In this document: piece after piece, positions 2-62,519 of the stretch | Layout: every line of letters starts with the position of its first letter | How positions within the stretch are numbered: the first letter of the stretch is position 1 | Origin: an uncultured Atopobiaceae bacterium | Lineage (GTDB): Bacteria > Actinomycetota > Coriobacteriia > Coriobacteriales > Atopobiaceae | NCBI GenBank assembly: GCA_947625405.1 | Contig: CANQOF010000002.1 | Span: forward strand, 1-64,000 | Direction of reading: 5' to 3' | Length of the DNA stretch: 64,000 bases | Notes under the pieces: generated by a model | What the model saw: only the letters and a program-made list of their open reading frames with translations | Told to the model about the DNA's origin: nothing | Databases searched by the model: none | Made by a program: the position numbers and the translations under genes

Positions 2-643
2 GTGGGGCCGACCGTGGGAGACCTCGTGGGACGCCACTGCCAGCTCCTCATCACCTCCGTCATGGAGGAGGGCATGAAGGAGCCCGCGAAGATCGTCTAC
101 GACCTCGTGTTCATCTGCTCCGGCAGGCCGGACCCCTACGCGGGCCTCATCCCGATCTATCGCCTCTACAACCCCTACGACGGCCAGCACCTGCTCACCG
201 CCGACAAGGACGAGTACGACGAGCTTTCGAAGATCGGCTGGGAGCAGGAGGGCGTGACCTCGTACCAGAAGGAGATCGAGCTCAGCACCGCCGCCACGAC
301 CCTCGACACCGTGGGCGAGACGCAGGAGAGCGAGGGGCACGTCTACCGCCTCTACAACCCCTTCAACGGCGACCACCTCTACACCGCCGTGCCGAGCGAG
401 GTGAGCGAACTCGCGCGCCTTGGCTGGGAGTTCGAGGGCGCGAAGTTCCAGAGCGCCGACCCGAGCGCCGAGGACGCGATCCCGGTCTACCGCCTCTTCA
501 ACAAGTACATGACCAAGAACGCGGGCCTGGGCGCCCACCTCTACACGCCCGACGAGAACGAGTACGCAGAGCTCGGCAAGCTCGGCTGGAACCAGGAGGA
601 AGCCTGCTGGTACGCCGAAGCCCTGCCGCCTTCGGTTGACTAA
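2..643 (+). CDS. Surface protein, C-terminal part with three DUF5648-like repeats (partial)
   Basis: This is the 3' end of a gene whose start lies before the window; the frame is open from base 2 and ends in TAA at 641-643. The first ~45 residues (VGRHCQLLITS...KIVYDLVFI) resemble the end of the domain that precedes the repeats in the giant protein at 49267-59916. Three repeats of the YRLYNPY..HL.T...EY..L...GW type follow; the third has the GLGAHLYTPDENEY form. Repeats of this type sit at the C-terminus of secreted proteins of Gram-positive anaerobes. No LPXTG motif or C-terminal membrane helix is visible, so the repeats may themselves bind the envelope (inference). A strong terminator follows at 699-735. 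Confidence 0.85.
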   Translation: MGPTVGDLVGRHCQLLITSVMEEGMKEPAKIVYDLVFICSGRPDPYAGLIPIYRLYNPYDGQHLLTADKDEYDELSKIGWEQEGVTSYQKEIELSTAATTLDTVGETQESEGHVYRLYNPFNGDHLYTAVPSEVSELARLGWEFEGAKFQSADPSAEDAIPVYRLFNKYMTKNAGLGAHLYTPDENEYAELGKLGWNQEEACWYAEALPPSVD

Positions 644-1673: not shown

Positions 1674-3176
1674 ATGGACCGCAAGAAAGTGAAGTTCGGC
1701 GTCATTGCCGCGCTCTTCGCTGCGCTCGTGCTGGTCTTTGGCGCGGCCACCGTCGCCAAGGCAGCCGTGGCGGACAACCCGATCAACGGGGTTATCGACC
1801 AGGGCATCGACAAGATCAACGCTAACGTATCCGGTTACGCGAACCTCGCGTGGAAGTCTGAGCCCACGGCAACTGGTGGCACCATCGTCACCACCATCAC
1901 CAAGACCGTTGCCATCACCACCGTGAAGGACAACATCGTCGGCACGCTTGCCTCTGAGCTTGCCGCAAATTCGAACCTCGTGAGCCAGGTGTCCCTCTCG
2001 GGTAACACCATCATGGGTACAGCGGGAAGCGCGACGCTTCAGGTGACTCCCAACGTCACCACCGCTCAGGTAACCCAGTTCGCCAAGGATTGCTTCGGTC
2101 CTGATCAGTATTACGCGGGCGAGGGCATCAATGTCCTCGACGGCAGGAGCTTCACGGTCGTCTGCACGCCTGCCTCTGGGAGTGGCGCGCAGAGGGCTGC
2201 TTACACCATGGAGTTCACCACCACTGCTCCCACCGACAGGCCCACTACGCCCCCCAGCCCTGCTGAGCAGGTCGAGGCGGTCACCGGTCCTATCAGCGCT
2301 GCCATTGAAAATGGCGTGGGTACCGACGCGAAAGTGACCCCGCCGACTGCGGTCGTCGATGGCGCGCTCACTTGGGAAGTCGGCGTCATCAACGCCACCG
2401 CTACCGTCGACGAAATCGGCCCGGTGCTCGTGGGCAACGTCCTGAGCGGCCTCAACACGAGCTCTACGCTCAACAAGGGCGCAACCGCGACCTCCGTTGA
2501 CGATCCCACCATCCCCGCTCTCCAGTTTGATACTGCTTCCGCCACTGATATCGACGACTTCGCCATTACTTGCCTGAAGGCCGCCGCCGCGAAGAGCGCC
2601 TCCTCCACGCAGGCCAACGAGGCTCCCGTGGCCATCAGCAACCTCGCGGGCAAGACCTGCACCATCAAGGTCCAGTTCAACGAGACCACCTCGACGGACT
2701 ACGTCTTCTCCTTCGCGAATGACGAGACGCAGGCTGCGGTCTATCGTCTCTACAACCCGTACGACTACCTGCACCTCTATACGACCGATGCAAACGAGTT
2801 TGACGTGCTCACAGGCCTTGGCTGGAATGACGAGGGTGTTGCGTGGAACGCGCCGCTCACCGCAACCGGTAATACCCCGGTCTACCGCCTCTACAACAAC
2901 TTCAACGGTGACCATTACTACACGACCAACAAGACCGAGGCCGACGGCCTCGTAGCGCTCTTCCCGAACGGGGAGGGCTGGGCCTACGACAACGGCGCCA
3001 AGCCCATCTTCTACAGCTGCCCGGCGAACGGCAATGGCATTTACCAGCTCTTCAACCCGTATCGCTTGGTGGACACCCACATCTGGACGGCCAACAAGCT
3101 CGAGTACGACACCTGCCAGGAGCAGGGCTGGACGGGCGAGAACATCAAGTTCTACGCGCTCTCCATCCCCAAGTAG
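1674..3176 (+). CDS. Secreted surface protein with three DUF5648-like repeats
   Basis: 500 aa. The ATG at 1674 is chosen because GGAAAGG lies 6 nt upstream and a clear signal peptide follows: MDRKK, a hydrophobic core, and a cut site near ATVAKA-AV (~residue 30). Residues ~31-345 hold two related domains of ~110-150 aa, each ending in the same pattern (FAKDCFGP...LDGRSFTVVC...YTMEFT and FAITCLKAA...LAGKTCTIKV...YVFSF), joined by a Thr/Pro linker (TDRPTTPPSP). Residues ~355-500 are three YRLYN/YQLFN repeats. The last 278 bp are almost identical to the 3' end of the gene at 60005-61957. There is no sortase motif. Probably envelope-associated and extracellular; the ligand is unknown. Confidence 0.9.
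   Translation: MDRKKVKFGVIAALFAALVLVFGAATVAKAAVADNPINGVIDQGIDKINANVSGYANLAWKSEPTATGGTIVTTITKTVAITTVKDNIVGTLASELAANSNLVSQVSLSGNTIMGTAGSATLQVTPNVTTAQVTQFAKDCFGPDQYYAGEGINVLDGRSFTVVCTPASGSGAQRAAYTMEFTTTAPTDRPTTPPSPAEQVEAVTGPISAAIENGVGTDAKVTPPTAVVDGALTWEVGVINATATVDEIGPVLVGNVLSGLNTSSTLNKGATATSVDDPTIPALQFDTASATDIDDFAITCLKAAAAKSASSTQANEAPVAISNLAGKTCTIKVQFNETTSTDYVFSFANDETQAAVYRLYNPYDYLHLYTTDANEFDVLTGLGWNDEGVAWNAPLTATGNTPVYRLYNNFNGDHYYTTNKTEADGLVALFPNGEGWAYDNGAKPIFYSCPANGNGIYQLFNPYRLVDTHIWTANKLEYDTCQEQGWTGENIKFYALSIPK
2880..3157 (+). repeat. 278-bp block shared with 61661-61938 (copy 1)
   Basis: Base-by-base reading shows one mismatch (A at 2934, G at 61715) against 61661-61938; synonymous positions are also identical. 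The blocks are in direct orientation, 58.8 kb apart. Flanking parts of the two genes are clearly more diverged. Confidence 0.95.
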
Positions 3177-49266: not shown

Positions 49267-52200
49267 ATGGTGTTCCATCTCCACTCACGTCATAGCGAAC
49301 AAGATGCTCCGCGCTCGCGGGCGCAGGCTCCAGCAGCCGGTGCGTCAGCCTCTCGGAAGAGGCTTACCATTGGCCACCGCATGCGCTGGATTCTCGTTCT
49401 AGCAGTGGTAATGATTGCCTCGCTTCTATCGGCTACTCCGGCACTGGCTAGTCAGAAAACCCTTGCGTGCACTGTCACTATGAATCTGGGTAAAGATGCA
49501 AAGAATTCAGATGTGAGGTCGGGAAGTATTGGAGTCAAGAATATATTTACTGATAAATGGGTGGGCGCAATTAAGGAATTCAGTTCGTATAATATTTCAA
49601 ATAGGGGTACTTCTGATGATCCCTACACCTTGGATTTTAGTGAGAAAAAGAGTTTCATTGATGCGGGATTAACCGCTATCCAAGATCTTGGGCTAAATGA
49701 CCAAGGTTGGTTGTTCAAGTGTCCTTGCGGTGACGACGGTGCGGATTTGAAAACGGACTGCGATGCGGCGTTGACGATTCAAAACAGAGAAGGGAATGCC
49801 AATAACCATTTAAAACTCTTGAATCTTTCCGTTTCTATTGTTAATCCAACAAGTGGAGGTGGAAAGTTCAAACAAAATGGGAAGTATCTATACGGTGATG
49901 AATTCGATGTTCTTGGGATAAAAGACAGCAACGTGATTTTTGCCGATGGCCTTAAGCTGTCCAACGCCACTCCATCTCAGCTACGAGATGATCCCGATCT
50001 CGGGACAATAAAACTGGGGTGCGTTTCAGTCGATGCGAAAAGCACCCTTGTTCTCGAGGCTAAGGATGAGGGAAAGGCTCCGAAAGTCCAGGGTCGTGTC
50101 AGGAACAAAGGCTCATTCACAAACGTGAATGGCGTGATCAGCGGTGGCCCGGAGAATAACAACGTCGCCCTCCTCAACGAGGGCGGGACTGCGCGCATCG
50201 AGGGCGGGAACGTCAAGGGCAACATCGTGGTCAAGGGTGGAACCCTGACGCTGGCAGGCGGGACGATCACGGGAGACATCACCGTGAGCGGCGGGAAGCT
50301 AGTTCTCGAGGGAGCCGCTACCGTGACGGGGAAGATAACCGTCGAGAGTGGGACGGCCGTTTTCTCATCCGGTACGGTGAATGGTGAAGTATCGAATAGC
50401 GGCGGCACGCTCGATATTTCCGACTCCATCAACGTTAAAGGACGTGTTTCCACCTCGGCGGGCTCGACCAACATCTCTGGAGGAACCCTCGCTAACGTGG
50501 CCACCTCCGGGAGCGGAACGACCACGATAACTGGGAACGCGAAGATCACGGGGAACGTGTCCACTTCGGGCGGGACGACCACGATCACCGGCGGGTCCGT
50601 GGATGGTGACGTCACAAATAATGGCGGCGGTAGCACCGTCGTTTCCGGCGGATCGTTCAAGAATCCCGTCGACCCCCGCTTCCTCTCGAACGTCGAGCAC
50701 CTTTCGATTTCCGGGACCGATTCGGCCAGTGTGCGATACGCGTATTCCAAGGAGAAGCTCGCTGATGGCCATGACGTGGCCATCGATGTGAAGGACGCCC
50801 AGGACGGTCTCCTCATTCTTGATATGGGGTTCAAATCTGGCCAGAAGGATGCCGGGAGCGCAATCGAGGCATCAATGGTGTCCCTCGTCCCGGGTTGGAA
50901 ATACACCCAGACGACGCAGCCGAAGGGCAACAACACGATGTGGGTTGTCCTCTACGGCGCAACTGGCACCTATACGGCGGACTTCAGTGAGAGCGGAAAC
51001 TCCGTGTGGCAGAGCGACGACTACTACCAAGTCGAGTGCAAGAAGCCCGGATTTGGCGTTATCCAGTTCTCCTTCGACAAGGAAAGCAAGACAGATCGCC
51101 TGACCGCCTCCAACTACACGGCGTCGCTCACGCAGGTGGATGGAGAGGCGTCCACCTCGGCCACGATTGCCATATCGAGCGTCGAGTACGACCTCGCGGG
51201 GGGCAGTAAGACTGCACAGCTCCCGCCCAAGACGTTCCTGGGGCCGAGGGAGACGGTGACCATCACCAACGTGGAGCCAACCAAGGACTACGAGAGCTTC
51301 AAGGGGTCTTGGAACGTCGACGGCGAGGAATACAAGGCCGGCCAGACGTTCAAAACGACTGACATTCCCAAGGAATACAAGGTGATGGCGAACTGGAATC
51401 TCGTCGCCCCCGAGTTCGATCTCGAACTGAGCGAGAACCTCTCGGGCATCAAGGCAGGAGAGAGTTGCCGCCTCACGGCCACGATTAGCAACACCGCCGC
51501 GAACAGCCATACGAAGAACGTCACGCTCAAGTTCTACCTTCCCATCCACGTCCGGCTCGCCAAAGGCCAGGACTCGGTGACGTTCGACGCGAAAAACTAC
51601 AGTTTGAGCGCCGCGGGGAACGTCCAGGTGAGCGATACCGGAGACTTCACCGTGACGGTGCCGGACCTCAAGAGCGACGAAAGCATCGCGATCACCTATG
51701 AGCTGAAGGTCGACGGCGACGCGCCCACGGACGAATACGCGGTCCAGGTGAACGCGGTGCCCGAGATCGGCAATGAGGTAAACAAGGCCCAGACCATCGG
51801 CGTCATTGCGAAGCCCGTGCTCGCGCTCGAGATGGCTTCGAAAGCCGAAGGATCCGTGGACGCCGGATCCGCACTCGAGCTCAGCGCCGTCCTCGCCAAC
51901 ACGGCCGCCGGCAGCGATGCCGGGAGCACGACGGTCACCTTCGAGCTGCCGGAGGACATGTCGCTTTCGGGCGAGCCGTCGTCGGTCGAAGTGGCTGACG
52001 CTTCGGGCGCCCCCATCGAGGACGTCGCGACGTCGACGGCGGAGCGCGGCTTCAAGGTCACCGTACCGAACGTCGAAGGCGAGAACCCCATCACCATCGC
52101 CTACGCCGTCGTCATCGACCGAGAAGCCCCGACCGGGGACAAGACCATCAAGGCCTCCGCTGCGCCCGCAGAGGGCAACGACACGAGCGGATCGACGATG

Positions 52201-55200
52201 GTCCACGTCGTGGCGCTCCCGAAGCTCACGATCGAGACGCCGGACGTCGAGCTCGTCCAGGGACGCGGCAAGGTCGTCGCCACCACCGTCTCGAACACGA
52301 TCGAGAGCACGGGCGCGACGACCGTCGACTTCAGGCTCCCGCAGGGCGTGACGCTCGCGAGCGGCGACGTATCGACCATCAGCGCCAAGAGCGGCGCGAG
52401 CTCGCTGGACGCAACCGGCATCGCGACGACCGATCAGGGCTTCACCGTCAAGGTCGACGACATCACGCCCGAACGGCCTCTGGTGGTCACCTACACCGTG
52501 ATGGCCTCCAACGAGGCCAGTGATTCCGGCCGGATCGAGGTCATCGCGTCTCCGACGAGGAGGCCGGCGGGCGAGGAGGACTTCACCTTCTCGGGCGCCG
52601 CCAACCTGTCGATAGGGCTGGCCCCGGCCATCTCCATCGTCGCGGGGGCCGCCACCCTGCAGCAGGGTCTCGCCAAGGAGCTCGCGTACACCGTCAAGAA
52701 CACCGTCGCGGGCAGCAACGCGGGTCAAACGACGATCACCCTCACGCTCCCGGCCGGCGTACGCGTCGAAGGCGGCAAGGATGGCGTCGAGACCTCTCCA
52801 AATGCCACAGACGTGAAGGTAGATGAAGGCGGACCCGCGACGACGGTCACCGTGACGGTTCCGGACATCACGTCCAAAGAACCTCTCGGCATCACCCTTA
52901 GGCTCGAGGCGGACGCGAGCGCCGCATCGTCCTCATCCATCGACATCCTGGCCGAAACGAGGGACGACTTCACCGCCGAGGCGTCGCAGCCGCTCACCGT
53001 AATCGCGAGGCCCGAGCTCACCTTGGCCGTCAGCCCGTCCGACGCCCCATCCGTCGAGCAGGGTTCGAGGACCACGTTCGAGGTCACCGTCGCGAATACC
53101 GTCCCGAGCAGCGAGACGGGGAGGACGACCGTGATCTTCACGCTGCCCGAGGGCGGCGAGCTTACGGGTAGCGCCTCCGTCACGTCCGGCACCGGCACCG
53201 TGGCAGTCGACGGCCACACGGTCACCGTCACGGCCGAGCAGGGCGTAGCCCACCGCGCGCCACTTGGGATAGCGCTCGCGGTCGAGGCGGCGAACGGGGC
53301 GAAGCCCGGGGAGAAGTCCGTCGACATCAGCGTGACGTCCGCGAACGCGGCGACGCAGACGACGACGTCGAAGGTAAACGTCGTCGCCAAGCCGGTACTT
53401 CAACTCGCCATGGCGGGTCCGGACGCGGAGACGACCATCGACGCGGGCTCGACCCTGAACCTCACCACCAAGCTGGAGAACATCGCCTCCGGGAGCAGCG
53501 CCGGCAAGACCACCATCGACGTGAGCCTCCCGAAGGGCGTCATGGCGCTCAAGGGGGACGTCTCCGCCGTCACGGTCGTGGACGAGTGGGGCTCTGCCGT
53601 CGAGGCCGTCGAGAGGCGGCTCACGGCCAATGGCTTCTCGATCTCGATCGAGGACCTCAAGGGCGACGCGTCCATCGCCATCGGCTATGAGGTCGAGGTC
53701 GACGACACGGCCCCGACCCAAGAGGTGACCGTTGCGGCGAACGCTCGCACGGACAGGGGTGTCGAAGCCGAGAGCGCCTCACTCACCATCCACGTCGTGG
53801 CCCTTCCGAAACTCGCGTTCGCGACCCCGGAGGCCTTCGTGCTCCAGGGCCACGGAACGCAGATGCAAACCACCGTGCGCAACGAGGCCGAGGGAAGCGC
53901 CACCGGCAATACGACCATCACGTTCACGCTGCCCGAAGGCGTGACGCTGGACGGCGGCGTCGTGGCGAAGATCGGCGAGGAGATCCAGTCGGTGCGCCAG
54001 AGCACGAGCGACTTTACGGTCACGATCCCGGACGGCATCGAGGCGGAGACTCCCCTCGTCGTCACCTATGGCGTGCAAGCGGGCTCCGAGGTGACTCCGG
54101 GTGAGCAAGATGTGCGCATAGATGCGAGCTACAGGAATGGGATGACCGCGAGCTCGACGGCGCGCCTCAACGTCGAGACGGCCCCCAAGCTCGCCATAGA
54201 TACTCCGGGCATCGCCATCCAACAGGGCCGGGAGGCCACGCTCAGCTACGTCGTGAAGAACCAGGTCCCGGGCACCGAAACCGGCAAGGTGAAGGTCACC
54301 TTCGAACTGCCGCGGGGCTTGAGCTTGGTGGACGGAGCGAGCGGCGTCAACGCGACGCGCAACGACGGACAGAACGTCAAGGTCAGCGTTGCCGACAACA
54401 CGATCACGGTCACGACCGAGAACCTTTCCCAGGCGTCGCCCCTCACGGTGAAGATGGCCGTGCGGGCGGACGACGAGGCAGATCCGGGCGACGCGTCCGT
54501 CAAGATCGTCGCCAATACGCACGTCGAGGACGAGGGCAAGAGCGACGGGATCACCGCGCAGGGCAACATCACGGTCATCGCAAAATCGAAGCTCGCCATC
54601 AAGACCGATCCCGACGCGAGGCTGTCGCTGGAGCAGGGCACCTCGTCAACTCTCACGGCCACCGTGGAGAACGTCGTCGAGGAAAGCTCGACCGGTCCGG
54701 CGACGGTGACGTTCGCGTTCCCGCAGGGCGCGGGGCTCAACGTCTCGGCGACCGTCAAGAGCGGCGATGCCGATGTGGCGACGATGGGCGATTCCATCAA
54801 AGTCACGGCTCAGAGTGGCGTCGTCCACGGAAGGCCCCTCGAGATCGAGCTCACCGTCGAGGCCGAGGACGCGGCTCCGGCCGGGACGCGAGTCCTGGCC
54901 ATCGCGGCAGAGCCGACCGAGGGCATGGGCGCCGGCACGACGAAGGACGTGGAGATCGAGACCATCGCCAAGCCCGTGCTCACGCTCGCGACCACGAAAC
55001 CGCAGGTGGGGACCGTCGATGCGGGGTCCACGCAGACCCTCGAGACCACGCTGTCGAACACGGCGGCGGGGAGCCACGCGGGTCGGACCACGATCGAGTT
55101 CCGGCTCTCGGAGCAAATGAGCCTCGCCAACGGCACGAGCAGCGTCCGCGTCACCGGGAGCTCCGGAGAGCCCGTCGAGGGCGCCGAGGTGCGCGCAGAT

Positions 55201-58200
55201 GGTCGCGATTTCACCGTGATGCTCTCCTCCTTCGAGGGCGGCGCATCGGTGGTCGTCAGCTACGACGTGACCGTCGACGCGACGTCCGCGACGGGGACCC
55301 AAAAGATCAACGCGACGGCTACCTGCGAAAAGGACGTCTCGGCGAACGAGGCGATATCCCTCGGTGTCACGGCGCTCCCCTCGATTGCCATCGAGACCCG
55401 GCCCGCCGCGGTCACCAAGGGCCATGGCGCGCGGGTGACGACCACCATCGCCAATGAGGCGGCGGGGGGTCCCACCGGTCGCACGACCGTGACCTTCGCG
55501 CTCCCCAAGGGCCTCGCTCTGGCAGATGGCGTCGCGCCGGTGAAAGCGACGGTCGGGGGCACTCCCGAAGCCGTGGAGATGACGAACGGGGGTTTCAAGG
55601 TATCGGTCGACGACATCCCGGCTGGCAGTTCCCTCAAGGTCATCTACGACGTGACGGCGGGAGCCGAGGCCGAGGTCGGGCAAAACAAGATTGAGGTCGC
55701 CGTGGATCCCGCAAGGAGACCTGCTGATGAGGCCACACTGCGGGCCAGGGGCGACATCCTCGTCTCTCCGAGACCCGTGCTCGCCATCGCCGCGTCCGGC
55801 GACAAGGTGCAACAGGGCCTCACCAAGACGCTCGCCTACGTCGTGAGCAACGGCACCCCTGATAGCGATACCGGGGCGACGACCGTCACCCTCACGCTCC
55901 CCGAGGGTTTGGTTCTCGAGGGCGAGGGCGCCGTCAAGGCGACCCCCGCTGCAACGTCCGTCACGGTGGGCGAGGACGGCAGGACGGTGACCCTCGTGGC
56001 CCCGAAGATCGCCCATGGTGCCGACCTCTTCATCACGATGGACGTTGCGGCAGAGGACACGGCCAAACCCGGCCCCACAACCCTCGGCATCGCGGCGAAG
56101 ACGGCCGAGGGCGACGAAGCGACGGCAACCCAGCGCCTCACGATCATCGCGAAGCCCTCCCTGGAGCTCACCCTGGACCCCGCCGAGACCATCTCCCTGC
56201 GGCAGGGCGAGGAGACCTACCTCACCGCCACCCTGGCGAACGCCGTGCAAGACAGCGAGACCGGCCAGACGGAGATCGCCTTCGAGCTTCCCGAGGACTC
56301 TGGCCTCACCGTCGAGGCGACGGATTTGGCCAGTGGCGAGACCGCGACGCCGAAGGGCAGCGCCGTCACCGTGACCGCGGACGGCGTCGCTTCCGGCGAT
56401 CCCGTCGTCGTGAGGCTCGCCGTGAAGGCCAGCGAGGACGCCCGGGCCGTCCAGCGGACGCTAGGCGTCAAGGTGTCGCCCAAATATGGCGCGGATACCA
56501 GCGCGAACGTCACGATCGAGGTCGAGGAGGAGCTCGGACTGGCCATCGCGACGATGGAGCCGCCGACCATCCAGCAGGGCTGCGACGAGCAGTTCACGGC
56601 GACCGTGACCAATACGGTTCCGAGGAACAAGACGGGCGAGACCACGGTCACCTTCACGCTCCCCGAGGGAGTCTCCCTCGCCAGTGACGAAGCCACGGAC
56701 ATCGCGGCATCCGGCGCGTCGGCCACGGTCACGCGCCTGGACGACCACGCCTTCAAGGTGACGGCTTCGAACATCCCGGGCGACCTGCCCCTCACCATCA
56801 CGTACCTCGTGCGGGTTGACGGGGACGCGACCGTCGACGGAAAGACCATCGGCATCGCGGCCTCTTCGACGAAGCACGTCACGGCGCAGGCCGACCAGGC
56901 GCTGAGCGTCTCCCCGATGCCGATGCTCTCCATCGAGGCGACGAAGTCCGCCATCCAGCAGGGCACCGACTCGAAGCTCATCGCTACCGTCGATAACGCG
57001 GTCGATGGCAGCTCAACGGGTCCCATCTCCGTGACCTTCGCGCCGCTCCCCGAGGGCATGGGCTTGAAGGGGACTGATGGCGCAGTGAGCGTAAAGGGCG
57101 GCAAGAACGCTCGGGTCGAGATCGGTGACGGATCCTTCACGATCCTCGCGGACGATCTAAAGGGCGGGGGCACCCTGAGCATCACGTACACGGTGGAGGC
57201 CGCCGAGGACGCTCCCGTCGACGCGTGCGCCATCCCCATCGCCATCGACGCCAGGAACCCCTTCAAGGGATCGAATTCGGCGCAGGTGGACCTTTCCATC
57301 ACCCAGAAGCCGCAGCTCGCGATCGCAAACGCCGAGAACGCAGACGGGGTCGAGGTACAGCAGGGCCTCGAGGTCGAGCTCGAGGGCTCGGTGAGCAACG
57401 AGGTCGACGGGAGCAGTACGGGCCCCGCCACCGTCACGGTCAGTCTTCCCGAAGGGGTGCTGATGGCGGGAGGACTCGACGATTCGGTGCGGGCCACCTG
57501 CGGCGATGTCTCCGTCGAGACGAGGAGCCTAAGCGCCGGCAACGGCTTCAGCCTCATGCTTCCCGACGGTTTGGATAGCCGCACCGACCTCGCGTTCGAC
57601 TATCGGGTGAAGGTGACCAGCGAGGCCGCGGTCGACAAGATCCCCATCACCATCACGGCCACCCCCCTCCAGGGCGACGGGGACACGTCCACGACCTACC
57701 TCGACGTCATCGGCGAGCCCGCGCTCGCACTCGGGGTCGGCTCCACCGACATGACCTATATCCAGCAGGGCGAGGCGCAGACCTTCGAACTCTCGCTCCT
57801 GAACGACACCGCGAGGAGCAAGACCGGCGCCGTCAAGGTCGACGTGAAGCTTCCGAACGGCATCCTCTTCACGGGCGATTCCCGTGTGGAGGGCGTCGAC
57901 GGGGCCGAGGTGGAGACCTGGGATGGCGCCAAGGGACTCACCTTCGAGCTCGCCGACTTGCCAGACGAGACTCCCGCGACCCTGCGCTTCGACGTCAGGG
58001 CGGAGGACGACTCGACGCCGAACAAGCCGTATGAGATTGGGGTCTCGGCGACCCTCGACGAGATGAGCGGTACGGGCGATGAGGGCGCCATTGACGTGAC
58101 TATCGTCCATAAGCCGGTGCTAGCCATCTCCGGCCAGGGCGCATCCGTGCAGCAGGGCAAGGCCGCCACGCTCGATGCCACCATCGAGAACCGCACCGAG

Positions 58201-59916
58201 CGCAGCCGGACGGGCGAGACGACGCTCAGCTTCTCGCTCCCGAAGGACGTGAGGCTCGACGGGGACGCCGCCAATGCGGTTTCCGCCCATGCGGGCGATG
58301 TGGTCCTACCGGTGACGTCCACGGATGGCGGGTTCTCCGTCACGGTGGATGAACTGCGTCCCGGGACCCCAATCGACGTCGCCTATGACGTGACCGTCGC
58401 GGATGATGCGACGCTCGGCATGAAGATCATCGAGATGCGCGCCGTGCCCGAGAAGGGCGCCGAGGCCGTCGCCCGCACCAGCGTCGACGTCACAGCGAAC
58501 GGCCGTCTAGCGATCGACGCGGAAGACGCCACCATCGAGGTCGGCCACGTGGGTCGCCTCGGCGCCACCATCTCGAACGAGACGCCCGGTGCCCAGATCG
58601 GCAGGACGACGGTCACGTTCACGCTGCCGGAGGGCATCGAGCTCGATGGCGACCTCGCGAGCGCCGTCAGCGCGGCCTACGGGTCGACCAGGCTCACCCC
58701 CAAGGCGCTCACCAGCGGCTTCTCCGTGACCGTGGACGACCTCGCCTACGGCGAGATGCTTGGCGTGGGTCTCAACGTGCACGTCGCGGAGGACGCGGAG
58801 CCGGGCGCGAAGACCATAACCATCCTCGCGGATCCGGCCACGACGGGCCTCGCCTCCACGGAGGCCGAGCTCACCGTTACCGTCCCAGAGGAGGTCTCCG
58901 AAGGACCCCTAGCCGAAGTGGTCGCCGAGTCCGCCGTGACCGACGCGACCGAAGTCTCGACCAATGTCGAGGAGGCGACCGGAGGACTCGCCAGTATGGA
59001 CGAGCCCCTGACGCAGGTTGGCGAGGACGCAAGGACCGCGACGGTGGCTTGGACGGTGCGCCTCGCCGTCGAAGCCGACAGCAGTGAGGCGGATGCCGGG
59101 AGTTTTAATGACGAAACCGTCGGCGCCGTCGCCGTCGCCAGCGTGTTCAGGGACGCAAGGGTGCCCCTGATCCGCGCGAAGACCTCCGTCGCCCAGAGCT
59201 ACGACGACCCGGGGATCGTCCTCGAGGACCTCGGCAACGCCTCCGACGAGGCCATCGCCGACTTCGGGCACCGCTGCGTCGCCGCCGTGCTGCCGGGTAC
59301 CTCCCGTGCGCTGGACCTCGACGCAGGGACGCAAACCTCACTGCTCCTCGGCAAGAAGATGACAATCCTCGTCACCACCGACGAGGGGACGGCCGACGAG
59401 TCAATCATCACCTATACCTTCTCGTTCGAGGCCAAGTCCTCGAAGGAGGAGGCCGCGACCGGCGAGGTCAGCGTCTACAGGCTCTACAACCCCTACGACG
59501 GCCAGCACCTCTTCACGGCCGACGCCAACGAGTACGAGAGCCTGTCCGAGCTCACGGCCGGTGGGTGGGTCCAGGAGGGCGAGCGCTACGTGTTGCCCGC
59601 CGACTCATCGGTGGAGATCCACCGCCTCTATAACCCCAACAACGGCGACCACCTCTACAGCACGGACCCCAATGAGGTGTCGGACCTCCAGGGCGCCGGC
59701 TGGGTGGACGAGGGCGTGAAGCTCCATGGAGCCGAGGGCGAGGGTACCGTGCCCATCTTCCGCCTCTGGAACCGCTTCATGACCGGCGACGGCGGCCTCG
59801 GCAGCCATCTCTGGACTGGGAGCGCCGACGAGTACAACGAGCTCCCCGGACTCGCCGTGGGCGGCTGGCTCCAAGAGGGCGAGGTCTGGCGGGCCCTCCG
59901 GCTCGCACAGGGATAG
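49267..59916 (+). CDS. Giant repetitive surface protein (3549 aa)
   Basis: The ATG at 49267 has only a weak SD and gives a long positive n-region before the signal peptide (hydrophobic core, cut near ATPALA-SQ, base ~49449); ATG 49381 is an alternative. Order: AT-rich head (to ~50040); Gly/Thr/Ser-rich beta-solenoid repeats (50150-50660); a domain ending in a Flg_new-like motif (51180-51400); 19 Ig-like repeats of ~131 aa (51406-58890) with pattern QG....TV.N...TG.TTVTFTLPEG; a shared pre-repeat domain (~59000-59450); three DUF5648-like repeats to the end. No sortase signal or transmembrane helix is present. Probably a long stalk adhesin; its ligand is unknown. The head has visibly lower GC than the rest, a sign of mosaic origin. 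Confidence 0.9.
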   Translation: MVFHLHSRHSEQDAPRSRAQAPAAGASASRKRLTIGHRMRWILVLAVVMIASLLSATPALASQKTLACTVTMNLGKDAKNSDVRSGSIGVKNIFTDKWVGAIKEFSSYNISNRGTSDDPYTLDFSEKKSFIDAGLTAIQDLGLNDQGWLFKCPCGDDGADLKTDCDAALTIQNREGNANNHLKLLNLSVSIVNPTSGGGKFKQNGKYLYGDEFDVLGIKDSNVIFADGLKLSNATPSQLRDDPDLGTIKLGCVSVDAKSTLVLEAKDEGKAPKVQGRVRNKGSFTNVNGVISGGPENNNVALLNEGGTARIEGGNVKGNIVVKGGTLTLAGGTITGDITVSGGKLVLEGAATVTGKITVESGTAVFSSGTVNGEVSNSGGTLDISDSINVKGRVSTSAGSTNISGGTLANVATSGSGTTTITGNAKITGNVSTSGGTTTITGGSVDGDVTNNGGGSTVVSGGSFKNPVDPRFLSNVEHLSISGTDSASVRYAYSKEKLADGHDVAIDVKDAQDGLLILDMGFKSGQKDAGSAIEASMVSLVPGWKYTQTTQPKGNNTMWVVLYGATGTYTADFSESGNSVWQSDDYYQVECKKPGFGVIQFSFDKESKTDRLTASNYTASLTQVDGEASTSATIAISSVEYDLAGGSKTAQLPPKTFLGPRETVTITNVEPTKDYESFKGSWNVDGEEYKAGQTFKTTDIPKEYKVMANWNLVAPEFDLELSENLSGIKAGESCRLTATISNTAANSHTKNVTLKFYLPIHVRLAKGQDSVTFDAKNYSLSAAGNVQVSDTGDFTVTVPDLKSDESIAITYELKVDGDAPTDEYAVQVNAVPEIGNEVNKAQTIGVIAKPVLALEMASKAEGSVDAGSALELSAVLANTAAGSDAGSTTVTFELPEDMSLSGEPSSVEVADASGAPIEDVATSTAERGFKVTVPNVEGENPITIAYAVVIDREAPTGDKTIKASAAPAEGNDTSGSTMVHVVALPKLTIETPDVELVQGRGKVVATTVSNTIESTGATTVDFRLPQGVTLASGDVSTISAKSGASSLDATGIATTDQGFTVKVDDITPERPLVVTYTVMASNEASDSGRIEVIASPTRRPAGEEDFTFSGAANLSIGLAPAISIVAGAATLQQGLAKELAYTVKNTVAGSNAGQTTITLTLPAGVRVEGGKDGVETSPNATDVKVDEGGPATTVTVTVPDITSKEPLGITLRLEADASAASSSSIDILAETRDDFTAEASQPLTVIARPELTLAVSPSDAPSVEQGSRTTFEVTVANTVPSSETGRTTVIFTLPEGGELTGSASVTSGTGTVAVDGHTVTVTAEQGVAHRAPLGIALAVEAANGAKPGEKSVDISVTSANAATQTTTSKVNVVAKPVLQLAMAGPDAETTIDAGSTLNLTTKLENIASGSSAGKTTIDVSLPKGVMALKGDVSAVTVVDEWGSAVEAVERRLTANGFSISIEDLKGDASIAIGYEVEVDDTAPTQEVTVAANARTDRGVEAESASLTIHVVALPKLAFATPEAFVLQGHGTQMQTTVRNEAEGSATGNTTITFTLPEGVTLDGGVVAKIGEEIQSVRQSTSDFTVTIPDGIEAETPLVVTYGVQAGSEVTPGEQDVRIDASYRNGMTASSTARLNVETAPKLAIDTPGIAIQQGREATLSYVVKNQVPGTETGKVKVTFELPRGLSLVDGASGVNATRNDGQNVKVSVADNTITVTTENLSQASPLTVKMAVRADDEADPGDASVKIVANTHVEDEGKSDGITAQGNITVIAKSKLAIKTDPDARLSLEQGTSSTLTATVENVVEESSTGPATVTFAFPQGAGLNVSATVKSGDADVATMGDSIKVTAQSGVVHGRPLEIELTVEAEDAAPAGTRVLAIAAEPTEGMGAGTTKDVEIETIAKPVLTLATTKPQVGTVDAGSTQTLETTLSNTAAGSHAGRTTIEFRLSEQMSLANGTSSVRVTGSSGEPVEGAEVRADGRDFTVMLSSFEGGASVVVSYDVTVDATSATGTQKINATATCEKDVSANEAISLGVTALPSIAIETRPAAVTKGHGARVTTTIANEAAGGPTGRTTVTFALPKGLALADGVAPVKATVGGTPEAVEMTNGGFKVSVDDIPAGSSLKVIYDVTAGAEAEVGQNKIEVAVDPARRPADEATLRARGDILVSPRPVLAIAASGDKVQQGLTKTLAYVVSNGTPDSDTGATTVTLTLPEGLVLEGEGAVKATPAATSVTVGEDGRTVTLVAPKIAHGADLFITMDVAAEDTAKPGPTTLGIAAKTAEGDEATATQRLTIIAKPSLELTLDPAETISLRQGEETYLTATLANAVQDSETGQTEIAFELPEDSGLTVEATDLASGETATPKGSAVTVTADGVASGDPVVVRLAVKASEDARAVQRTLGVKVSPKYGADTSANVTIEVEEELGLAIATMEPPTIQQGCDEQFTATVTNTVPRNKTGETTVTFTLPEGVSLASDEATDIAASGASATVTRLDDHAFKVTASNIPGDLPLTITYLVRVDGDATVDGKTIGIAASSTKHVTAQADQALSVSPMPMLSIEATKSAIQQGTDSKLIATVDNAVDGSSTGPISVTFAPLPEGMGLKGTDGAVSVKGGKNARVEIGDGSFTILADDLKGGGTLSITYTVEAAEDAPVDACAIPIAIDARNPFKGSNSAQVDLSITQKPQLAIANAENADGVEVQQGLEVELEGSVSNEVDGSSTGPATVTVSLPEGVLMAGGLDDSVRATCGDVSVETRSLSAGNGFSLMLPDGLDSRTDLAFDYRVKVTSEAAVDKIPITITATPLQGDGDTSTTYLDVIGEPALALGVGSTDMTYIQQGEAQTFELSLLNDTARSKTGAVKVDVKLPNGILFTGDSRVEGVDGAEVETWDGAKGLTFELADLPDETPATLRFDVRAEDDSTPNKPYEIGVSATLDEMSGTGDEGAIDVTIVHKPVLAISGQGASVQQGKAATLDATIENRTERSRTGETTLSFSLPKDVRLDGDAANAVSAHAGDVVLPVTSTDGGFSVTVDELRPGTPIDVAYDVTVADDATLGMKIIEMRAVPEKGAEAVARTSVDVTANGRLAIDAEDATIEVGHVGRLGATISNETPGAQIGRTTVTFTLPEGIELDGDLASAVSAAYGSTRLTPKALTSGFSVTVDDLAYGEMLGVGLNVHVAEDAEPGAKTITILADPATTGLASTEAELTVTVPEEVSEGPLAEVVAESAVTDATEVSTNVEEATGGLASMDEPLTQVGEDARTATVAWTVRLAVEADSSEADAGSFNDETVGAVAVASVFRDARVPLIRAKTSVAQSYDDPGIVLEDLGNASDEAIADFGHRCVAAVLPGTSRALDLDAGTQTSLLLGKKMTILVTTDEGTADESIITYTFSFEAKSSKEEAATGEVSVYRLYNPYDGQHLFTADANEYESLSELTAGGWVQEGERYVLPADSSVEIHRLYNPNNGDHLYSTDPNEVSDLQGAGWVDEGVKLHGAEGEGTVPIFRLWNRFMTGDGGLGSHLWTGSADEYNELPGLAVGGWLQEGEVWRALRLAQG
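51811..56526 (+). repeat. Three copies of a four-domain super-repeat inside the giant gene
   Basis: Units 51811-53388, 53389-54969 and 54970-56526 (1578, 1581, 1557 bp). In each, the four Ig-like domains start with the same class signatures: KPVL...DAGS; LP...QG.G...TT; P...QQG...L.Y.V.N; S..QG with an added T..SG..A insert. Domains 1 and 14-19 lie outside the pattern. Confidence 0.85.
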
Positions 59917-60004
59917 TGAACCACCGACCGCAACGCGACCCACGAGGTCGCACACGGACGGATAAATGGAGGGGCTGAAGGCCCCACAACGAAAGGAAGG
60001 TTCA

Positions 60005-61957
60005 ATGAACCATCGGAAAGCACGGAAGCGCGTCCTCGGGGGCGTCCTCGTCGCGCTCATGGCGCTCATGGGCATCCTCGTCGCTGCGACTCCTGCCAGG
60101 GCAGCGAGCGGCGACACCTTCACGGTGGTGAACCACCTCACCATCACGCTCGACCCGTCTAACATGAGCAAGTCGACGATCTCAGGTCCATCCGTGGGTG
60201 GTACCGTGACCTTCGCTGATGCGAACTCGATGTTCGCGGACGCCGGCGGCACCGGCTCGTTCGTCACCTACGCGAACGGCGTCTACACTGCCAACTTTGA
60301 GAACGCCGCCGTCAAGGACAAGGTGAATGGCGAGAACGTCTACTTCAACCTCGGCCACATGCTTCTCGGCGATCCGTACAACACCCTCTTCGAGGGCGGC
60401 AACGCCATCACCGTCCAGGGGAGCGGCTCGATCGTCTTCAAGAACCTCGACGTCTCCATCCTCGGTGATACGGCCGGCAGCGGCACCGACGGCACCGACA
60501 CCACCGAGGGCGGCAACATCGCCAACGGCCTCCTCACCGGCACGAACACGATCTTCGGCGTGGGCTCCGGCTGCACCGTGACCCTGGGCGATGGCGTCGA
60601 CATCGACACCGCGACCCCCGTCAACGACAACAGCGGCAAGACCGTCAAGTGCAACGCCATCCTCGCGAGCAGCGGTGGCACCATCAACATCGGCTCGCCC
60701 ACCGGCAGCGCGCAGGCCCAGGCAATCGCCACGTCCAGCGAGGGCGCCGTCATCGACGGCACCGCCCGCGCCACCGGCAACGGCAAGATCGTCGTCTACA
60801 AGGGCATCGTTGCCTCCGCGGGCGACGGCGTGACGGCCGGCAACAGCGTCATCACCGCCACTGTCGGCGGCCAGACGGTCATGGGCTCCACCCCGATGTA
60901 CCTCAACGACGTGACCATCCCCTCCGGCACGGTGACCGTTACCTCTGCTCCCAAGGGCGCGACCATCTACACCAACTCCAGCACGACCGTCAGGAACGGC
61001 ACGACCTCCACGGACATCTCCGTCGGCGTCACGGGCGGCGCGACGCAGATCGTGAAGCCGAACGGCACTCTCACGCCCTCCAAGCTCAGCGCCAAGGAGG
61101 CCCTCCAGCTCGCCGTGACCAACGCCGAAACCGACAACCCGGCCTCCGCCAGCTCCAAATATACAAAGGCCTCCTGGGATGCCTACCAGAAGGCCCTGAC
61201 CGCAGCTAAGGACCTGCTCGCCAGCACCCAGACGGTGACGAATAACCAGTACGAGCAGGCCGCCACGGCACTCCAGACCGCCATCGACGGCCTCGTGGTG
61301 AACGGGCCCAACCTCGCTGCGCTCCAGCAGGCCGTCGACGACGCCCAGCGTCTCGTGGGCACCGACTCCACCGTCTACCCCGCAAACGAGTGGCAGGCCT
61401 ACCAGACCGCTCTCAATGCGGCGCAGGCCATCCTCGACAATCCCGCCGGCTCCACCTCGGCCGATATGAACGGTGCCCGCAGCGATCTCCAGAAGGCCGT
61501 CGCCGCCCTGGTCAGCGTGGTTTACCGCCTCTACAACCCCTATGACGAGCTGCACCTCTTCACCACCGACGCCAACGAGTACGAGACCCTCCTCGGGTAC
61601 GGCTGGAACGACGAGGGCGTGGCGTGGAACGCACCCGCCGGTGCCGCCGGCAACACTGCGGTCTACCGCCTCTACAACAACTTCAACGGTGACCATTACT
61701 ACACGACCAACAAGGCCGAGGCCGACGGCCTCGTAGCGCTCTTCCCGAACGGGGAGGGCTGGGCCTACGACAACGGCGCCAAGCCCATCTTCTACAGCTG
61801 CCCGGCGAACGGCAATGGCATTTACCAGCTCTTCAACCCGTATCGCTTGGTGGACACCCACATCTGGACGGCCAACAAGCTCGAGTACGACACCTGCCAG
61901 GAGCAGGGCTGGACGGGCGAGAACATCAAGTTCTACGCCATCTCCCTCCCCGAGTAG
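60005..61957 (+). CDS. Secreted surface protein with beta-solenoid, two FIVAR-like domains and three DUF5648-like repeats
   Basis: 650 aa. The ATG at 60005 follows AAGGAAGG. Signal peptide: [10 protein letters not shown], hydrophobic core, cut near ATPARA-AS. Residues ~30-355 are Gly/Thr/Ser/Asn-rich beta repeats. Residues ~363-435 and ~438-503 are two related three-helix units ([38 protein letters not shown]), like FIVAR domains of Gram-positive adhesins. From ~507 three YRLYN/YQLFN repeats follow; the last 278 bp are nearly identical to the gene at 1674. It starts 88 nt after the giant gene, so the two may be co-transcribed. Confidence 0.92.
61661..61938 (+). repeat. 278-bp block shared with 2880-3157 (copy 2)
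   Basis: Identical to 2880-3157 except G at 61715. It covers the second and third C-terminal repeats of the 60005 gene. Confidence 0.95.
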
Positions 61958-62177: not shown

Positions 62178-62519
62178 ATGAACGTCATCGAAGAGATCGA
62201 AAAGCAGCAGCTCAAGAGCGATGTCCCTCAGCTCGAGCCGGGCGACAACGTGAAAGTGCACTACCGCATCCGCGAGGGCGATCGCGAGCGCATCCAGGTG
62301 TTCCAGGGCGACGTGATCCGCATCGCCGGCCACGGCGCGCGCGAGACCTTCACCGTGCGCAAGACGAGCTTCGGCGTGGGCGTGGAGCGCACGTTCCCGC
62401 TGCATAGCCCCAAGATCGCAAAGCTCGAGGTCGTGCGCCACGGCCAGGTGCGTCGCGCGAAGCTCTACTACCTGCGCGAGCGCTCCGGCAAGTCCGCGCG
62501 CATCCGCGAGCGTCGCTAG
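62178..62519 (+). CDS. rplS: 50S ribosomal protein L19
   Basis: 113 aa. L19 lies at the 30S-50S interface. The family sequence is clear: [48 protein letters not shown], ending [30 protein letters not shown] precedes the ATG at 62178. In many bacteria it follows trmD; here it is 25 kb away with its own promoter and terminator. Confidence 0.97.

Follow-up and report, generated by a model that had tools for sequence, protein, structure and literature searches.

A 278-bp tract shared by the DUF5648 modules of two surface-protein genes points to recent gene conversion in an uncultured Atopobiaceae bacterium

The window analyzed here, a stretch of 64,000 nucleotides from an uncultured Atopobiaceae bacterium, contains two genes for secreted proteins, P1 and P2, that both end in a DUF5648 (PF18885) module. 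These genes, the repeat units (blades) of their modules and the neighboring features are listed below by position in the window:

2..643, plus strand: gene X (3′ end), for a third protein with a DUF5648 module (152-616), lying upstream of P1
1254..1469, plus strand: orphan 3′ DUF5648 fragment (blade 3 and stop codon, preceded by the end of blade 2)
1674..3176, plus strand: gene P1, a secreted protein of about 500 aa from the ATG at 1674
2739..3161, plus strand: DUF5648 (PF18885) module of P1, by profile match
2739..2879, plus strand: first blade of the P1 module, diverged relative to that of P2
2880..3157, plus strand: shared tract, copy 1, blades 2 and 3 in P1
3378..4823, plus strand: amino-acid permease following P1
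41319..44111, plus strand: pyruvate phosphate dikinase (ppdK)
49267..59916, plus strand: P3, a giant surface protein of 3549 aa upstream of P2
59473-59895, plus strand: the different DUF5648 module of P3 itself
60005..61957, plus strand: gene P2, a secreted protein with FIVAR domains (the ORF opens at 59966; likely start 60005)
61520..61939, plus strand: DUF5648 module of P2, by profile match
61520..61660, plus strand: blade 1 of the P2 module
61661..61938, plus strand: shared tract, copy 2, blades 2 and 3 in P2, the probable donor
62181..62519, plus strand: rplS (L19), following P2
62592-63389: rnhB, next after rplS

P1 has no known domain, and among relatives in the genus its N-terminal region has one weak partial match only (G002, 38%). 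P2 contains FIVAR domains and has orthologs in the sister genome G001 (66%) and in G002 (60%). P3 has many tandem Ig-like repeats, with a GBS104-like match in Pfam. Gene X continues at the right end of contig C29 of the same genome. Its close paralogs, at the right end of C12 and the left end of C29, are 89-96% alike before the module and 82-88% inside it, the reverse of the pattern in P1 and P2. The orphan fragment between gene X and P1 is in-frame and has no 5′ part. On the minus strand at 868-991, a possible short ORF for a membrane peptide with a basic C-terminus was spotted by eye and, again by eye, recalls type I toxin or holin-like small proteins.

The modules of P1 and P2 score 117 and 113.8 bits against the PF18885 profile, for which the curated cut-off is 25. 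Modeled with AlphaFold2 (pLDDT 95), the P2 module folds into three beta-beta-alpha-beta units, which fits the (beta3-alpha)3 architecture, also called a three-bladed beta-alpha propeller, given in the DUF5648 passages of two papers (PMC11299179, PMC12853789). Relatives of solved structure were not found in the PDB by sequence search or by Foldseek. The same passages propose glycan binding (PMC12853789) or hint at it (PMC11299179), and we therefore treat the domain in P1 and P2 as a putative glycan binder. Since the shared tract opens at the second unit and closes about five codons before the stop codon, it corresponds to blades 2 and 3 of the propeller, so that the first-pass annotation, made from this DNA alone, was exact in equating it with the C-terminal portion of the repeat module.

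Direct comparison confirmed the near-identity of the two blocks. Positions 2880-3157 and 61661-61938 match at 277 of 278 bases, in direct orientation and at an offset of 58,781 bp. The lone mismatch (A at 2934, G at 61715) lies 54 bp from the 5′ edge of the tract and is non-synonymous, as it changes an ACC codon to GCC and threonine to alanine. Apart from this base the exact match runs from 2878 and stops at 3157 in P1 coordinates, and the longest mismatch-free run is 223 bp. At the same fixed offset, identity falls abruptly on both sides: to 100/141 in blade 1 (2739-2879; 71%), to 51/159 upstream of the module, which is the random level, to 15/19 bp in the last codons after the tract, and to the chance level of 28/124 past the stop codon. 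The identity extends to synonymous sites, as had been claimed. Counting over codons that belong to a common fourfold-degenerate family in both genes, 13 of 20 fourfold sites differ in blade 1 and none of 35 in the tract. When the observed differences between the P1 and P2 modules were redistributed 20,000 times over the 438-bp module, no stretch with one mismatch or none exceeded 128 bp, versus 280 bp observed. Elsewhere in the genome, the next-closest copy of the tract is 68% identical. The first-pass annotation also described the rest of the two genes as widely diverged. Outside the module this is too mild, as the N-terminal parts have no detectable similarity on comparison, and the C-terminal module is thus all that the two genes have in common.

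We consider recent ectopic gene conversion, as one instance of a recurrent habit of the genus, to be the best explanation and a probable one, judging from sequence comparison. Homologous recombination within the genome would recently have copied about 278 bp between P1 and P2, probably from P2 (at 61.7 kb) into P1 (at 2.9 kb), and the 5′ end of the converted tract would fall at the border between blades 1 and 2. More generally, DUF5648 modules may serve as cassettes at the 3′ ends of surface-protein genes, made uniform or exchanged between the genes of one genome. Both copies lie on one contig of the short-read assembly (C2) with the intervening 58.8 kb kept, and we infer a conversion without exchange of flanks. 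Two more specialized mechanisms were considered and rejected. A 15-mer, TACCGCCTCTACAAC, lies at the 5′ border of the tract in both genes and was a candidate for a dedicated recombination site, but it occurs in just 7 of the 31 modules of the genome. As for a mobile element carrying the tract, matches to plasmid and phage proteins never exceed 41% identity.

A census of DUF5648 modules in six genomes of the genus, one genome per species, places the pair in a wider context. The window's genome (G000; 1.72 Mb in 33 contigs) holds about 31 substantial modules, 24 of which end within 11 residues of the stop codon. Across the genus, module tails compared within genomes (n=1339 pairs) have a mean identity of 52%, and five pairs exceed 99%: P1/P2, one pair on contig C17 of G001 and three on contig C41 of G001. 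The C17 pair consists of adjacent RCC1-repeat and RHS-repeat genes that are identical over 510 bp while their bodies are 64% identical. Three genes of papain/lectin type on C41 have about 590 bp in common at 98-99%, their modules being 99.5-100% identical and their bodies 69-75%. In these two cases, paralogous modules within one species are thus 99-100% identical where the bodies are at 64-75%. The three-gene cluster of C41 is also present in the window's genome (C27 plus C32), and between these orthologs the relation is reversed, with bodies 85-91% and modules 73.5-77% identical. Module similarity is thus set by the genome and body similarity by the gene, which indicates concerted evolution of the 3′ cassette. 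This comparison with related genomes supports the earlier proposal of recent conversion or exchange of C-terminal cassettes. The orphan fragment at 1254-1469 is a further trace of module turnover.

Contig C27 of the window's genome runs at either end, by exact overlaps of 77 bases, into the one module assembled on C32. The outer genes of the cluster therefore have 77 bp or more in common, apparently the module, and are homogenised at least to that extent. These two outer genes diverge in both genomes, and as their terminal DUF5648 modules are near-identical, lie in inverted orientation and are separated by about 10 kb, recombination between the modules could invert the cluster. A separate similarity links C20 and C13, which share 260 bp at 97% identity located 440-700 bp downstream of their DUF5648 modules.

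The direction of copying was probably from P2 into P1, for which codon endings and sequence matches provide moderate evidence. In the tract, 6 of 92 codons end in A or T, a count compatible with the third-position expectation of P2 (10.6%; P=0.13) and not with that of P1 (20.6%; P=0.0002). For comparison, 14 of the 47 codons in blade 1 of P1 end in A or T (30%; Fisher P=0.0005 versus the tract). Outside the window's genome, blade 3 has its closest counterpart in G001, in the P2 ortholog (72-74%), and the only P1 relative, a weak one on contig C80 of G002, has a different blade 3. Together, the P2-like codon endings and the affinity of blade 3 point to P2 as the donor. The picture is complicated by blade 1 of P1 and blade 1 of P2, which are mutual best matches (71%) and make an older exchange likely, and by a part of blade 3 (VDTHIWTAN) that resembles another subfamily (L067).

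The first-pass annotation had preferred conversion to a crossover, because recombination between direct repeats would delete most of the window. This argument is sound against a simple deletion. It does not account for gene order, which at both copies varies between species, so that an exchange of flanks is possible, though not needed. In G001, the P2 ortholog stands directly before the ortholog (94% identical) of the permease found downstream of P1, whereas in G003 an ilv operon, with gene names read from translations, occupies the position before the permease. A kinase gene, not P2, precedes rplS in both G001 and G004. One could therefore propose that recombination with flank exchange, or relocation of a surface-gene island, made the shared tract. 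P2 would once have stood before the permease; on its move to the rplS site it would have taken along its own copy, while blades 2 and 3 stayed behind and joined the 5′ part of P1. Comparison of the window with G001 agrees with this to some extent, as the spacer 5′ of the permease is homologous, near the permease only, and no homology links the 3′ flanks of P2 and of its ortholog. We nevertheless regard such an origin as rather improbable. The 58.8-kb segment itself has not moved: the distance between ppdK and rnhB is about 0.7-6 kb in 7 of the 8 other family genomes searched, and the two genes are near neighbors in most well-assembled members of the family, which puts the segment from permease to rplS in its ancestral place with its backbone order kept. 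The parts that change are the surface-gene islands at the two ends of the segment. The last five codons and the 3′ flanks of P1 and P2 also differ, so two breakpoints within about 280 bp would be required anyway. Moreover, the difference in gene order lies between species and is older than a tract with a single mutation, which is far younger. Two specific versions were tried and set aside. The idea that the 3′ flank of P1 is the old 3′ flank of P2 met with the limited homology of the G001 spacer near the permease, which is not decisive, and a translocation of the 58.8 kb as a circle through a crossover at the tract, to which the P2-permease adjacency in G001 had pointed, is contradicted by the adjacency of ppdK and rnhB in most family genomes.

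Horizontal transfer, in which another strain or species supplied the tract to one locus or to both and homologous recombination inserted it, is less probable still, and we give it little credence. The family has many DUF5648 genes, mosaic in makeup, and with one genome per species transfer is inseparable from internal copying. However, the tract is at most 74% identical in every other genome searched, the plasmid and phage matches (at most 41% at the protein level) offer no closer source, and an exact donor within the same genome is the simpler origin.

An assembly artefact, such as a collapsed or misjoined repeat or a mixture of strains, also has to be weighed. Many contig ends overlap by exactly 77 bases, as expected when short reads are assembled on a de Bruijn graph at k=77, and because the 223-bp exact run exceeds this k, links across the tract rest on read pairs. 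The presence of the tract in two contexts on each side is independent of this linking. Drawing both copies needs reads over all four junctions. Furthermore, one base, 54 bp from the 5′ edge, tells the copies apart, an alternative join would leave 58.8 kb of backbone genes as a circle of their own, and other assemblies have the same pattern. We therefore judge an artefact to be very unlikely. DUF5648 genes do break short-read assemblies: 7 of 66 contig ends lie in them versus 1.1 expected, an excess that we also count in favor of the conversion habit, although the ends are not all independent. Contig ends and DUF5648 genes are also often adjoined by a dispersed non-coding repeat of several hundred bp (L339:4280-4800) that has strong palindromes and copies about 87-95% alike. 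It occurs at the ends of C4, C9, C14, C26 and C31 and also on C27 and C1, and it has no Rfam match.

Finally, the idea that strong purifying selection holds the tract identical everywhere at the DNA level, which by the first-pass annotation would have made conversion unnecessary, can be dismissed, as no point in its support was found, the next copies in the genome are just 68% identical, and orthologous modules (74-77%) are less conserved than the rest of the gene (85-91%), which excludes silent-site conservation as the cause.

Recent ectopic conversion between P1 and P2 would document a recurrent homogenisation of 3′ cassettes across a large secreted-protein family, with about 31 substantial modules in a 1.7-Mb genome, and the unit of exchange coincides with blades of the fold. 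Should the domain prove to be a binding head, a commensal could by this route reassort its binding modules. A bolder hypothesis, that in these gut actinobacteria whole modules or single blades are repeatedly moved by ectopic recombination between secreted proteins whose N-termini are unrelated, as a cassette system that reshuffles presumed glycan-binding heads, is at present speculative and seems unlikely to us.

The two DUF5648 papers (PMC11299179, PMC12853789) agree with our findings, in their passages on the domain, in fold, C-terminal position and proposed glycan binding; unlike the present analysis, those passages do not treat recombination between modules. Likewise, a literature search with little subscription coverage returned no account of gene conversion in Coriobacteria or of exchange of DUF5648 modules. 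There are several known systems with which the tract can be compared. Ectopic conversion of dispersed repeats with the DNA between them kept is known from rRNA operons and tufA/tufB (PMC8022953), but those are near-identical housekeeping copies, whereas here the flanks are 71% identical or unrelated. In the programmed antigenic variation of pilE/pilS, silent cassettes feed an expression locus at a high rate; in the genomes considered here the donors are mostly complete genes, and a single orphan fragment (1254-1469) was found. In the tpsA/tpsC genes of Neisseria meningitidis, the 3′ end of a secreted-protein gene is replaced from related genomic cassettes and orphan cassettes lie nearby (PMC3848433). 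There, the tpsC cassettes form an array behind tpsA, while the mostly complete donor genes here are spread genome-wide. The babA/babB and homA/homB genes of Helicobacter pylori are likewise surface-protein genes whose 3′ segments are alike within a strain and whose 5′ segments are alike between strains, so that paralogs exceed orthologs in identity at the 3′ part and the reverse holds at the 5′ part, a pattern attributed to intragenomic gene conversion (PMC3960876, PMC2795765). It is known there from series of strains and is read here from one genome per species. The bab and hom paralogs are homologous over their full length; here the N-terminal parts are often unrelated and the shared piece is the DUF5648 propeller. 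We therefore regard the tract in P1 and P2 as a further, probable case of the gene conversion already known among genes for surface proteins, one that is distinct from bab/hom in its domain, its lineage and its partners, which often share nothing but the module.
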